Shown: positions 2,217-48,873 of the stretch, in pieces
Position numbering within the stretch: position 1 is the stretch's first letter
How the letters are laid out: each line of letters opens with the position of its first letter
Virus record (IMG/VR): IMGVR_UViG_3300010400_000002
Span: 1 to 64,000 of that record
Strand: one strand, 5' to 3'
DNA from: a virus
Length of the DNA: 64,000 nucleotides
Position numbers and translations under genes: made by a program
The notes under the pieces: generated by a model
The model's database searches: none
The model's input: only the letters and a program-made list of their open reading frames with translations
Told to the model about the DNA's origin: nothing

Positions 2217-4196
2217 ATGCTTCACGAAAACGCTAAACCTAAACCGGAATATAAATACCAGCCTATCCTAAAATACGGCATTCCCAATATGTCACCGGAG
2301 TCGTTAGACTACGACAGGTTTTGGAGTGAAGAGAAGCGCCGCTGCATGGAAGGGTATAAACCACCGGACGGCGTTTGGATCCCGGGAACATATTATTACC
2401 ATCTCAACCACCGACCAATATCACGGCTGCGTTATGAGTTTGACCCGAAGGGATTGAATAAAACGATTGTAGCGCGACCACTGTACCGTGACGGTAATCA
2501 TTTCATCCATGAGAACGTAGATCGCAGGCGCAAAGAAAATAGAGGCGGTATCATCATCCTAAAAGGAAGGCAGATGGGTGTGACCGACGATATGGTAGGC
2601 ATCGTAGATCACACGTCACGATTCTTTATCTCAGCACAGTGTTGTTACGGCACTCCGGACCCTGACCAGTTGGCAAACTTCTACGTAAAGTTTGGGATAG
2701 GAAATGACGGCGTATCGGAAGCATTCTCGCAACCACTGAAAGTAAAAAATGTTGACCAGCGACAAATGGGGTTGGAGTATGACACCCCTTTCGGGAAGAA
2801 AACACTTGGCTCAGAGTCTATAATATTTACATCTGCTATTCCTAAGTCGGCAGTATTCAAAGGAAAGAACTTTGTACTCAGTGTTATTGATGAAGTGGGA
2901 ATGTTCGGCAAAGGCAAGAAAGAAAAAGATTTAGGAAAGGGAAGTCGCGCTGTAACGCTCTCACAATTTTGGGGTGACACCGTGGACTGTTGGAAGCGTG
3001 GTGACTCATGGTACGGGTTTCCGATTCTGCTCGGAACGGTAGATCAGATCAACTACGCTAAGAACACCGACCTCGAAAAGTTTTGGATGAATTGCGACCT
3101 ATATGATTTGGAGCGACTGCTACTGCCTGCCGACTATATGTATGGTGACTGCATAGACCTGCTTACAGGAATAAGTGACAGACCACGGGCACGAAACATA
3201 ATTCTGAAGAAGAGAAAGAAACTTGACCAGCTTGAAGATAAAACGGACTACTGGAAAGAAGTTCAGAACCATCCTCTCAATGAAGATGAACTGTTCCTTA
3301 TCACTATCAACTCGTTTGTCAATGCGATACGGGTGAAGGAGCAGATTATCCGCGTGAACAATAATCGCGCACTGCAAGAGCAGTGTATGGAAGGGGAACT
3401 GATTTGGGAGCGGGTGAATAATGACGGTAAGTTGGAATACACAGGAAAAGTTTTGTTCCTGGAAAAGCCTGGTGGGTTGTGGCGCAAGAATTTTGACCCT
3501 ATCAACTACCTGTATCCTGATACCGACATCGTGTGTGTGGATGACTTTATGAAAGATGATGCACCCAACTCAGAATCACTTGGTGCTATCGTGGCGTGGC
3601 GACGGTTTATCAACCTCGATCAGATTTGGAACATACCCACCATGACCTATTTAGGCAGACCGAAGGTGGAAGAGTTTCATGATGAAGCGTTGAAGTGTGC
3701 TGTATTCTGTCAGGCGCGGGCGGCGGTGGAAAAACTGAATGAGATGATGAAGAACCATTTCCTCAATTCAAAAAAAGTTGTTGGCGCTGACTACCTCAAG
3801 ATATTTCCGTTCGTCAATGGAAAGCATGTGAAACCAAGTGATGCCTATGGTTATGATATGCAGGCACTCAAGCCACAGTCAATACAACGAATTTGCAATT
3901 GGACGGATTCACCGTACATCGAAAACTGTTTTGATATCCGTTACCTCAAGAACATTGCAATCTTCGGAAAGCAGAACTCTGACTTAGGAAGTGCCACCGC
4001 TGTTGCTCTCGCGTGGGTAGATGACATGGCTGCTGTTCCGGTGCAGAAAGCCGATGAAGTTCAGGACGGGGCACAGGTGGGGTTGCAGTACCAATTCAAG
4101 AAGGACGGGCATTTGATCCAGATGGTGAACCGCAATGTGAATGATGGACGTGAGAAATTTCCTAAACTAAAATGGTTGAAAACTCAAAACGCATAA
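2217..4196 (+). CDS. terL: Large terminase subunit (ATPase-nuclease)
   Basis: This is the packaging motor that pumps DNA into the procapsid and cuts concatemers. The N-terminal ATPase domain has a P-loop-like segment, KGRQMGVTDD (about residues 116-125), and a Walker B strand, SVIDE, ending at D225-E226. A C-terminal RNase H-like nuclease domain is suggested by an aspartate-rich strand near residue 442 (VCVDDF) followed by SLGAIVAWRR. The length of 659 aa fits the family. The P-loop lacks the usual GK before the threonine (MGVT), a deviation I recall in some distant phage terminases. The gene precedes portal, as in most tailed phages. The family call is confident; the nuclease residues are approximate. 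Confidence 0.9.
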   Translation: MLHENAKPKPEYKYQPILKYGIPNMSPESLDYDRFWSEEKRRCMEGYKPPDGVWIPGTYYYHLNHRPISRLRYEFDPKGLNKTIVARPLYRDGNHFIHENVDRRRKENRGGIIILKGRQMGVTDDMVGIVDHTSRFFISAQCCYGTPDPDQLANFYVKFGIGNDGVSEAFSQPLKVKNVDQRQMGLEYDTPFGKKTLGSESIIFTSAIPKSAVFKGKNFVLSVIDEVGMFGKGKKEKDLGKGSRAVTLSQFWGDTVDCWKRGDSWYGFPILLGTVDQINYAKNTDLEKFWMNCDLYDLERLLLPADYMYGDCIDLLTGISDRPRARNIILKKRKKLDQLEDKTDYWKEVQNHPLNEDELFLITINSFVNAIRVKEQIIRVNNNRALQEQCMEGELIWERVNNDGKLEYTGKVLFLEKPGGLWRKNFDPINYLYPDTDIVCVDDFMKDDAPNSESLGAIVAWRRFINLDQIWNIPTMTYLGRPKVEEFHDEALKCAVFCQARAAVEKLNEMMKNHFLNSKKVVGADYLKIFPFVNGKHVKPSDAYGYDMQALKPQSIQRICNWTDSPYIENCFDIRYLKNIAIFGKQNSDLGSATAVALAWVDDMAAVPVQKADEVQDGAQVGLQYQFKKDGHLIQMVNRNVNDGREKFPKLKWLKTQNA

Positions 4197-4209
4197 TACC
4201 TTCACCGCT

Positions 4210-4488
4210 ATGAATAGAAAAACTTTTCTCCAATCAATACTCTCTCTCGTAGCATTGCAAGTGTTGAAACCAATTCGGTCACTGTATAGCGAATCAAATT
4301 TATTCAGAGGATATGAGGAAGGGAAAACGTATCCATATTTTCCGCCGAATCTAATATGTGGCTATCGCTTTAAAACCTATGAAGGTGATAATACTGTTTG
4401 GTATGCTATGGGTGAATTAGAGTTTGAAAATAATATTTGGGAACCTGATGAAATAGAAGTTGTTGGAACTTACGCCTACCTAAAATAA
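4210..4488 (+). CDS. Small exported or membrane-anchored protein, 92 aa
   Basis: The N-terminus MNRKTFLQSILSLVALQ resembles a signal peptide with a Tat-like R-K-x-F-L pattern, followed by a small soluble domain containing aromatic strands. It sits as a one-gene insertion between terL and portal, genes that are usually adjacent. The start has a CCGCTATG context. It could be a lysogenic-conversion or superinfection-exclusion accessory gene; that is inference. Family unknown. Confidence 0.6.
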   Translation: MNRKTFLQSILSLVALQVLKPIRSLYSESNLFRGYEEGKTYPYFPPNLICGYRFKTYEGDNTVWYAMGELEFENNIWEPDEIEVVGTYAYLK

Positions 4489-4493
4489 TCTCA

Positions 4494-6692
4494 ATGATAC
4501 CTGATCTTGAAATTCCGGAAGGAGATGTCGAGCGCAACCAATGGTCGCAGAACATACTCGACTCAGTAAGCCGTTACAGCATGGGCAAGCGATGGAATCA
4601 GATTCGCTACGGCTACATGGATAACTTCCGTAAGTTCCTCGGTGATCTTGAGCTTTCAGATTATGAACACATCCACTCTACCCTCGGCAAACCAAAGCCG
4701 ATGCTGTTTGCTAACTACCCTCTCTTTGAACCTCTCATACAGCAACAGGTAGGTGAATACACTTCGCGTCCCGTTCCGTTCGGGATAAACCGTATCAACA
4801 AAAATGCGTACTCCGACAAACTGCACATGGAGAGCGAGCTTGCCTCAGAGAAAATATTGGAACCGATTTGGGCGCGTATAGAAAAGGAGATGGGAGTGAA
4901 ACTGCCGATAGAGAAAAAGATGCAGTTGATACCTCCACAATTTCAGGGTATGCCTTCTAAGTCTATCCGCGACTACATCGAAGTGAATGTGAAGTATGGA
5001 CTCAACTATTTATACAACACCTATAAATTCGGAAGTCAGTTCTCATTGAACTTATATGACATCATGATTAATGATGACTGCTTTTCTAAGATTGATATTA
5101 TAGGTAATGACCCCGTTATCCGTCACATACCCATTCAGAACGCGATCTTTCAATATGGCGAGGACAACTACATATTCGATGAAGTGCATAACCGCAGTCC
5201 CTTCATGGGCAAAGATGTGTGGATGACCATTGATGCTGCTATTGCGCGATACGGTTACCGGCTGTTACAGAAGCAACGGGAGAAGCTGTTGCAAGATCAA
5301 AAGGGGATGCTGAGTGACACCACTTACATGACATTCCTGAATAACCAATGTGATAACGGGTGGATTGCATATCGCAAAAATGATGGCGGACAATTTCTAC
5401 TCCACGTTATTGACATCGAAGTGAAGGCTATCAACAAAAAGAAATTTCTGAACTCTCCATACACTCCTGACAGAGATGACATCTACGAATCAAAAGATGT
5501 GACTGAGATTTGGGAACTATTCAAAGCCGGTACACAATACGGGCAACCACGGCGACGCAAGAATCAGATTCCCCTTAAAGGAAATTATTTCGACAATCAG
5601 TTTTCTTATTTTGGGATGCTGTCACGGCACTCGTTCTTCCGCAAAGCGTGGCCTGTTCAAATGCTGTGGAACACTTCATGGATGACACTGGAATTTTTGC
5701 TCAACCAAAGTGGTGGCAAGGCAATGCGTTATGCTACCGAACGCAAGCCGGACAATTATGAATATGAAGATGTGGCGTGGATGGGTAAAGTGCTTGGACT
5801 GGTGGTAGAACAGATTCGGGCGGGTGATATTCCCGGGAGAAGCACTGCATCGGGTGAAGTTGACTTTGGTCCTTCCCAATCCATTCAGTATATCGTAGCC
5901 ATGATTCAGTTGCTCAAGCAGACGGCAGCGGAGATGACAGGAGTAAGCAAAGCGCGACAGGGACAGTCAGCTACAACATCTGCTAACAGTTCATTACAGA
6001 CGAGCATAGTACAATCATCATACACTACCAAACCTATTTATGATGTGCTCACGATGCATACGCAAACTGGACTACAGCGATGTGCTGATCTTATTACTTT
6101 TCTATGGGAGGGAGATGAAACTAAGAGTTACATAGGGGGTGACGGTATGCCAGTTGTGTTTAAAGTAGCAAAGGATTTAGGGTTACAAGAACTTGGAATC
6201 TACGTTGATTCCGCTATGCAAGCTGCACAGGAGAAAGAAGTGATACTTGATTTGATGCGACCCCTTACAGCAACAGACCCTCTGATGATTTTGGAGGTGG
6301 TGAAAGTTTTCAATTCTGAAAGTGGTGCTGAAGCAGAACAAATATTGGAACTTGGAATTTCAGCATTGCGGCAGAATCAGCAAGCGATGGAGCAAAGTAA
6401 GATTCAGATTGGCGCTGCTGCCAATGAACTTAAGAAGCGTGAATTGGATATGAAAGAAGAAGAACTGTTCATCAAGAAAACTGTTCCTGTTAAAGTTGCG
6501 GAAACACAAAAAGAGGCAAGTGAAAATGTTCAACTCCTGAAGAATGAGGGAGAAATAAATGCGACAGTTTTAAGCGAGAGAGCTGCATTAGACAGGGATA
6601 TGCTTAACGCTTCGAATGATGAGCAATTACAACAATCACAGATGCAGCAAGAACAAGAGCAACCGCAAGAATCAGAAGCCGTACCAGCATAA
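4494..6692 (+). CDS. Portal protein
   Basis: The 732-aa product occupies the position directly after the terminase and has the size and texture of a portal protein: an alpha/beta body with PLFEPLIQQQVGEYTSRP near the N-terminus and a central YIVAMIQLLKQTAAEMTGVSKARQG segment, here quoted only in part, typical of the clip/stem helices. The C-terminal 130 residues are helical, glutamine- and glutamate-rich, and probably form the crown or barrel. Twelve copies would form the DNA channel at the capsid vertex. The assignment rests on order, length and the TGVSKARQG stem motif. Confidence 0.8.
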   Translation: MIPDLEIPEGDVERNQWSQNILDSVSRYSMGKRWNQIRYGYMDNFRKFLGDLELSDYEHIHSTLGKPKPMLFANYPLFEPLIQQQVGEYTSRPVPFGINRINKNAYSDKLHMESELASEKILEPIWARIEKEMGVKLPIEKKMQLIPPQFQGMPSKSIRDYIEVNVKYGLNYLYNTYKFGSQFSLNLYDIMINDDCFSKIDIIGNDPVIRHIPIQNAIFQYGEDNYIFDEVHNRSPFMGKDVWMTIDAAIARYGYRLLQKQREKLLQDQKGMLSDTTYMTFLNNQCDNGWIAYRKNDGGQFLLHVIDIEVKAINKKKFLNSPYTPDRDDIYESKDVTEIWELFKAGTQYGQPRRRKNQIPLKGNYFDNQFSYFGMLSRHSFFRKAWPVQMLWNTSWMTLEFLLNQSGGKAMRYATERKPDNYEYEDVAWMGKVLGLVVEQIRAGDIPGRSTASGEVDFGPSQSIQYIVAMIQLLKQTAAEMTGVSKARQGQSATTSANSSLQTSIVQSSYTTKPIYDVLTMHTQTGLQRCADLITFLWEGDETKSYIGGDGMPVVFKVAKDLGLQELGIYVDSAMQAAQEKEVILDLMRPLTATDPLMILEVVKVFNSESGAEAEQILELGISALRQNQQAMEQSKIQIGAAANELKKRELDMKEEELFIKKTVPVKVAETQKEASENVQLLKNEGEINATVLSERAALDRDMLNASNDEQLQQSQMQQEQEQPQESEAVPA

Positions 6693-47515: not shown

Positions 47516-47544
47516 CGGGGTGGCAAATCAGCACCCCGTTTTTT
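47516..47544 (+). terminator. Intrinsic terminator ending the late operon
   Basis: CGGGGTG (47516-47522) pairs with CACCCCG (47532-47538) and is followed by TTTTTT. The GC-rich stem plus the U-tract and the location after the last plus-strand gene make this a typical factor-independent terminator. Confidence 0.85.
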
Positions 47545-47645
47545 ATTGAGGCAACTCAATCTGAAAGAGAAGTTTCTTTTGCTTCGGCGCAGTATCAATT
47601 CGGGGGGCAAAAAAAATGGATGATGTTTAGTCACCCATTTTAAAC

Positions 47646-48245
47646 AGTACCATAGCGGTGCGAACCCAACCATGCCAGCGCCTAACAGAACCATATCCAA
47701 CAATACCGAGCCTTACACGATCACACCATACCGGCTTTCCAGCCCGTTCCATGCCATACCTCTACTTACATCAGCCAACCATACAGGACTAAAGCAAGCC
47801 ATTGCTAACCTATCCCGACCATACCGACTCTTTCGAGTCCGTACCCAACCGAACCATACCGAACACAAGCGAACCGCGCCGACGCCGAAGCTAACAATAC
47901 CATTCCCGATACTACCGCGCTCGACATAAGCTGACCAATCCATACCAAACCGGAGATAATTTTCCCGTTCCTTACCATACTCAACCGAACATTACCTAAG
48001 CCAGCCGTACCCTGCATAACCGAAGCTGACCGAACCGACTGAAATTAATCAGTCCGTACCACGCCGTACACTACCATTCCAAACAAAATTGAACCGTATC
48101 CCGCCATGCCGAATCGAACCTTACCACAACACACGGAACACCACCATGCACTACCATACCGGCTTTTAAAAAGCCCGCACCAAACCAAAACTCAGCTAAC
48201 CGGACAAAACCGAACTCCACATAACCCCGCCCCGGCAAACCGGAA
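47646..48245. repeat. Five-base-phased A/C-rich tract with embedded hairpins
   Basis: About 600 bases in the gap between the converging operons. The plus strand is rich in A and C and poor in G and T. From 47751 it divides almost perfectly into five-base words, mainly NNACC or NNNCC (for example TTACC, CAACC, GAACA, TTACC, TAAGC, CAGCC, GTACC). Inserted between blocks are small hairpins whose flanks are conserved (ACC before, CGYNCC after) and whose arms differ: at about 47732-47746, 47826-47839 (GACTC/GAGTC), 47951-47967, 48037-48054 (GACTGA/TCAGTC) and 48161-48175 (GGCTTTT/AAAAGCC). Block lengths are multiples of five. I find no convincing gene. Confidence 0.7.
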
Positions 48246-48246
48246 T

Positions 48247-48873
48247 TTAATCTTCAATGACATCATAATTCTTAATAGCAAATCTTCCATATGACGGTCT
48301 GAAATCTCCAACGCCGCACAATCTTCCTGCCTGTACCAACGTGTCAATAAACAATGCCACATCAATATACTCAGGCAACTGAATCATGAATTGACATTTG
48401 CAAGTCCATCCTGATTTTAATGCAGGACGAGTGCGATTAATGCCTGACCGCTGAATAACAACACGCCGACGATCTTCATAATCCCATTCTTTCTTTCCTA
48501 AAGAGCAAAGTGGAGTTAATGAGATTACTCCTGCTTTGAATAAGTCCATTGCCGACTTACGAGGCGAGCGAGGGTCTTGTTTGAACTTTGATGCAGCGAT
48601 ACAACTCATGCGAAAATATTCACCCGGGATACAGAGAAATCCTTTATCATCCCGATAGACGTAGCTTTCGAGATCATCAGTTTTTTTAGCAGCAGAATTT
48701 TTTTTCGCTTTCGCTTTTTCATCTACTGCCTCTGCATTCCATCGGTGAAACAGCATGTCGGCTGTACCTTGAAATGTTACTTCAATCATGAACGGTTCTG
48801 AATGTTCAATGACTTTCTTTGCGCCGTTTGTTGGCTCACTCACATTCTTAGCGAGTGTTTTTGCTGTACTCAT
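48247..48873 (-). CDS. Conserved phage protein of unknown function (FRPSYGRF family)
   Basis: The 208-aa protein has segments I recall from a family common in phages: KKTDDLESYVYRDDKG, CIPGEYFRMSCI, DPRSPRKSAMDLFKAGV and the end GRLCGVGDFRPSYGRF. The glycine-rich C-terminus and beta-alpha texture recall RNA-binding Cas7/RAMP proteins, but this is only a visual impression. It is the last gene of the leftward early operon and has its own promoter with a structured leader. Function unknown. Confidence 0.7.
   Translation of the reverse strand: MSTAKTLAKNVSEPTNGAKKVIEHSEPFMIEVTFQGTADMLFHRWNAEAVDEKAKAKKNSAAKKTDDLESYVYRDDKGFLCIPGEYFRMSCIAASKFKQDPRSPRKSAMDLFKAGVISLTPLCSLGKKEWDYEDRRRVVIQRSGINRTRPALKSGWTCKCQFMIQLPEYIDVALFIDTLVQAGRLCGVGDFRPSYGRFAIKNYDVIED

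Follow-up and report, generated by a model that had tools for sequence, protein, structure and literature searches.

The tract at 47.64-48.24 kb of the analysed DNA, the first 64,000 nucleotides of virus record IMGVR_UViG_3300010400_000002 (hereafter the window), is almost certainly the guide-RNA array of a VIPR (Viral Interference Programmable Repeat) system, and by analogy with published systems the phage probably uses it to silence genes in rival mobile elements. VIPR, first described in April 2026, joins a RAMP protein, Vipr, to vrRNAs made of GGY/NN pentamers and is directed against competing phages; decoding skips one target base between NN pairs (PMC13142463). We document here the identity and fold of the gene product, the anatomy of the array, the conservation of gene with array, and, by sequence matching, the one-base-skip decoding.

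A Five-Base Phased Tract on the Minus Strand

The plus strand of 47646-48245 is A/C-rich, as the earlier note had stated (C 221, A 196, T 97, G 86). CC dinucleotides form 35 pairs at lag 5 and keep the phase up to lag 30 with 27-32 pairs, against 1-14 pairs at out-of-phase lags. The lag-five autocorrelation proposed as a check was run over the whole window, and comparable CC phasing was found at this tract and nowhere else in the 64 kb. The earlier note had also named loss of phasing upon composition-matched shuffling as the refutation of its claim. Compared with 1000 dinucleotide-preserving shuffles, the tract has 35 GG pairs at lag 5 (shuffle mean 12.3, maximum 23), 181 in-phase GG pairs over lags 5-30 (maximum 97), and a longest GGY run of 22 units (maximum 10). 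The phasing is thus real, spans 47.64-48.24 kb, and exceeds that of every shuffle.

The informative strand is the minus strand, on which the unit is mostly a GGY+NN pentamer; the C-richness of the plus strand is merely the complement of GGY. On the minus strand the tract begins at 48241, 5 nt past the stop of the gene at 48247-48873(-). A blastn search of the tract against phages gave chance matches only, an Rfam search gave nothing meaningful close to the tract, and a literature search on pentameric repeats in phages found no description. The earlier note likewise knew of none, a statement since overtaken by the 2026 report (PMC13142463). The features of the locus, in minus-strand order, are as follows.

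48247..48873, minus: vipr gene, predicted 208-aa Vipr protein, ancestral RAMP; PHROG 4652, "unknown function"
48177..48241, minus: guide segment A, 13 pentamers; predicted target, C-terminus of a DUF2188 gene
48161..48176, minus: hairpin 1 GGGCTTTTTAAAAGCC, pairing arms, fold
48056..48160, minus: guide segment B, 21 pentamers; target search negative
48037..48055, minus: hairpin 2 GGACTGATTAATTTCAGTC, pairing arms, fold
47967..48036, minus: guide segment C, 14 pentamers; suggested target, HELYHVLYD site of an M78/IrrE-like peptidase
47952..47966, minus: hairpin 3 GGGAAAATTATCTCC, weakest stem of the five
47841..47951, minus: guide segment D, 14 + 8 pentamers with an extra base at 47881; target search negative
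47826..47840, minus: hairpin 4 GGACTCGAAAGAGTC, pairing arms, fold
47746..47825, minus: guide segment E, 16 pentamers; target search negative
47733..47745, minus: hairpin 5 GGGCTGGAAAGCC, pairing arms, fold
47642..47732, minus: guide segment F, 11 + 7 pentamers with an extra base at 47677; target search negative
47609..47641, minus: terminal stem-loop AAAATGGGTGA, then a T run; fold -10.7 kcal/mol

Array Anatomy

The array comprises about 104 pentamers in six guides, with five hairpins between them and a terminator-like hairpin at the end. Segments A-F hold 13, 21, 14, 22, 16, and 18 units, so that short segments (13-16 pentamers) alternate with long ones (18-22), and three exceed 16. The phase is unbroken apart from the hairpins and the single extra bases at 47881 and 47677. 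All five hairpins that the earlier note had described are real, with arms that differ in sequence yet pair; folded with their flanks they reach -6.8 to -11.3 kcal/mol, and each small hairpin lies directly 3' of a guide. The alternating spacing reported for them was measured at about 94, 126, 87, and 123 between centres and arises because short and long segments alternate; the run described as 13 words in a row between 47973 and 48036 corresponds to guide segment C. The NN bases differ throughout the array. A CRISPR-Cas array was considered and rejected, as identical direct repeats are lacking and the units share GGY only. The GGY of the window is looser than that of its relatives, with G at position 1 in 77% of units vs 96%.

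The stem-loop at 47609-47641(-) is likely the end of the array transcript; it went unreported in a generic terminator scan that requires 3 G-C pairs. We consider it possible, though doubtful, that this clade has an array design of its own, in which a continuous in-phase tract carries short and long guides and two alternating kinds of hairpin, and in which non-GGY units are also decoded. Such a design would add an architecture to those known for VIPR arrays, and guides may then flank each hairpin on either side.

The Adjacent Gene Encodes a Vipr Protein

A Pfam search placed the 208-aa protein in no family. The sequence search of solved structures returned one match, 36pp, "SUSP1 Vipr protein" (E 3.1e-5), a structure from the paper describing VIPR (PMC13142463), and the alignment spans the glycine-rich G-loop (GVGDFRPSYGRF / GVGDWRPRFGRF). 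The window protein is only about 24% identical to SUSP1 Vipr. An AlphaFold model built from 27 relatives has a pLDDT of 86.7 and a pTM of 0.78, and the best PDB folds for it, among the matches listed, are CRISPR RAMPs of the Csm3/Cas7 type (probability 1.00). Judged by sequence and model, with a predicted RRM core and a G-loop, the gene at 48247-48873(-) is a vipr gene, and PHROG 4652, hitherto of "unknown function", can take the name Vipr. In the window its neighbours encode an MT-A70 methyltransferase and an HNH protein. A vap accessory gene was not recognised, and no neighbouring gene is common to the clade.

Conservation of the Gene-Array Unit

We collected 47 loci with Vipr homologues, comprising 19 from IMG/VR, phage DSL-LC04, and 27 from bacterial genomes, and called an array where a GGY array lay within 1.5 kb of vipr, on the strand of the gene, with a score above the best shuffle. 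Such an array is present at 46 of the 47 loci, upstream of vipr, downstream of it, or on both sides; the sole locus without one has vipr at a contig edge, where the locus is cut off. Pentamer positions 1-3 are conserved in the relatives (entropy 0.29, 0.86, and 1.31 bits), and positions 4-5 are near-maximally variable (1.96 and 1.97 bits). As a positive control, the parser recovered four vrRNAs of 11, 15, 14, and 10 repeats around vipr in SUSP1, in agreement with the published layout (PMC13142463).

These data bear on two other explanations that the earlier note had raised. In the first, a C-rich, G-poor rut zone would load Rho on the late plus-strand transcript and back up the terminator near 47544. 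The plus strand is indeed C-rich, and the tract lies past a terminator between converging operons, but Rho needs no strict five-base phase across 600 bases, and in 46/47 relatives the tract keeps the strand of vipr, often upstream of the gene, rather than following a terminator; we regard this role as extremely unlikely. The second is a replication origin or packaging site, to which a two-layer G-quadruplex tract may be added. The intergenic position at a GC-skew turn would suit it, and GG at each five bases could build two-layer quadruplexes; a quadruplex can form without constant 3-nt loops that have a pyrimidine at position 3, however, and the array is tied to vipr across unrelated genomes. 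The analysis gave no support to an origin or packaging role, and the probability of any of these three is negligible.

Several relatives show features of their own. At one locus (L003, 2455-3192) a 98-unit array has guides of 10-14 units followed by structured-looking tails of about 60 nt, unlike the short hairpins of the window. Long inverted repeats (TTTTATTGGAAAAAC / GTTTTTCCAATAAAA) lie in array gaps and flank guides at L008 (5692-5937) and L009, and a similar inverted pair (TTTCTTAGTG / CACTAAGAAG) surrounds a guide of DSL-LC04 (L022, 3809-3890), whose Vipr (3998-4615, WJZ48083.1) carries the annotation helix-turn-helix transcriptional regulator. The Stenomitos rutilans contig JAHHIE010000002.1 contains the same vipr and array twice, about 102 kb apart (L270 and L271).

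The One-Base-Skip Rule

A total of 725 ten-unit guide windows of the clade were decoded against 2.9 Mb of collected sequence. With one base skipped, the real guides gave 27 matches of at least 19/20, and there were none at this level when guides were permuted (five sets) or reversed (one set), or when skip 0 or skip 2 was used; the comparison with skip 3 was swamped because arrays match themselves. The 27 matches are not independent, and those inspected represent two guide-target relations. The first concerns prophages in two Thermomonas-family genomes (L324-L326): ten units of a guide of L017 match the start of an AAA-protein gene there at 20/20, and the full guide does so at 26/30. A Thermomonas guide (L269) matches the same gene start at 21/24, and its own copy at 17/24; as L324-L326 were picked because this guide matched them, only the L017 match there is independent. 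The genes flanking these sites are homologous to those of the VIPR-bearing Thermomonas phage (compared by eye), and a BRO-type gene sits at the place of vipr, next to the AAA gene that is the predicted target. In the second, a guide of L272 matches six related Phycisphaerae prophages at 21/22, vs 14/22 at its own locus. The predicted targets in relatives are homologous rival prophages. A first all-against-all target search among the early loci found none, and no targets were found for one Alicyclobacillus guide and a second Thermomonas guide.

The results support the one-base-skip rule in this clade at the level of sequence. Guides A and C of the window and those of L017 and L269 are antisense to the predicted target gene, and that of L272 is sense; guides that match either strand are as expected for DNA recognition. 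The decoding also weighs on the idea that the repeats bind Vipr solely to regulate vipr, as a TRAP-like leader or 3'UTR, without DNA targeting. The array directly adjoins vipr on the same strand, as such a role would have it, but the NN pairs decode to matches in rival elements that permuted controls do not yield at such rates, and the SUSP1 system represses DNA targets (PMC13142463), which makes self-regulation alone very unlikely.

Predicted Targets of the Window Guides

The eight central units of segment A, decoded with skip 1 against IMG/VR, matched 11 places. The full segment agrees at 25/26 NN bases in L295 and L305 and at 23/26 in L300-L303, and at the same loci skip 0, 2, or 3 gives at most 17/26. 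By a rough estimate, a guide would reach 25/26 somewhere in the collection by chance with a probability of 0.001 to 0.01. The match falls on the C-terminus of a DUF2188 protein (PF09954, E 4.7e-25 for the L305 protein) ending in ...NSYGNDPYPPKG, and the skipped bases fall on codon wobble positions. Six of the 13 units are non-GGY, and their NN bases match at 12/12. Plasmids and prophages commonly carry DUF2188 genes. Because the motif is conserved and the elements matched at 25/26 are not known to share the host of the phage, the real target may be another member of the DUF2188 family than those of L295 and L305. A 22/26 match of guide A in L296 has the other reading orientation and lies in a different protein, and was taken as chance.

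Segment C, decoded antisense, reads [FL][IM][HQ][DE][FL]Y[HQ]VLY[DE]. In L061 it matches 24/28 bases where an M78/IrrE-like protein (PF06114) has its HELYHVLYD zinc motif. The chance of this match in the collection is estimated at about 0.05, uncorrected for how many guides were tried, so that the match, weak alone, is suggestive of an M78 peptidase gene as the target. Homologues of this protein on Bacteroidota plasmids match guide C at 19-22/28, and tblastn of the protein in phages gave no match. For segments B, D, E, and F, each scanned with one 8-unit stretch, no convincing target was found, the best extensions outside the seed being 10/26, 0/12, 8/16, and 4/6, respectively. No segment has a target in the phage's own 78 kb genome.

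The large terminase of the phage (2217-4196 of the window) is remotely similar to those of crAss-like phages, and only 4/37 genes have a strong Shine-Dalgarno sequence; from these two features the host is probably a member of the Bacteroidota.

Proposed Mechanism and Significance

Expression, processing, DNA binding, and repression are extrapolated here from what has been published on the SUSP1 and P. fulva systems. The array would be transcribed on the minus strand, after vipr, and the transcript processed into six guides, with the hairpins capping or separating them. GGY would be the scaffold gripped by Vipr, each pentamer holding one subunit, and a Vipr oligomer would assemble along the guide RNA. 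The suggestion of the earlier note that the tract is an array of protein-binding sites on single-stranded RNA or DNA comes close in its RNA part, with one Vipr subunit per pentamer expected. The NN pairs, with one target base skipped between pairs, would spell the target; on competing mobile elements, the ribonucleoprotein would attach to double-stranded DNA complementary to the guide and keep the target gene from being transcribed.

A recently described system was thus recovered independently from raw sequence, and a new array and Vipr join it. The finding extends VIPR to a phage whose terminase is remotely crAss-like and whose host is probably one of the Bacteroidota, and brings controlled sequence support for the skip-1 rule to a Vipr clade about 24% identical to the tested one. 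Candidate targets can be named: DUF2188 genes, M78 peptidase genes, and rival prophages in Xanthomonadaceae and Phycisphaerae.

Comparison with Known Systems

TRAP (trp RNA-binding attenuation protein) binds RNA triplets with two-base spacers, which gives a five-base period as well. To our knowledge, the TRAP spacers carry no targeting information, and the protein is unrelated to Vipr.

The VIPR systems of SUSP1 and P. fulva (type II) share with the window a Vipr RAMP, a GGY/NN array beside the gene on its strand, a hairpin after the guide, one-base-skip decoding, and competing mobile elements as predicted targets. With 13-22 pentamers per segment, the window array agrees with the roughly 9-16 of VIPR guides apart from three longer segments. 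The separate vrRNAs of the published systems, with long pseudoknotted tails, contrast with its near-continuous in-phase tract and small hairpins. The window also differs in its looser GGY and in having no recognised vap. Its array may be one of the "staggered arrays with overlapping vrRNAs" described in the VIPR paper (PMC13142463). Class 1 CRISPR-Cas systems, with their Csm3/Cas7 RAMPs and crRNA, resemble the window system in the RAMP fold and in a guide composed of a variable and a structured part; they have identical direct repeats and contiguous spacers, whereas the guide information of the window is split into dinucleotides.
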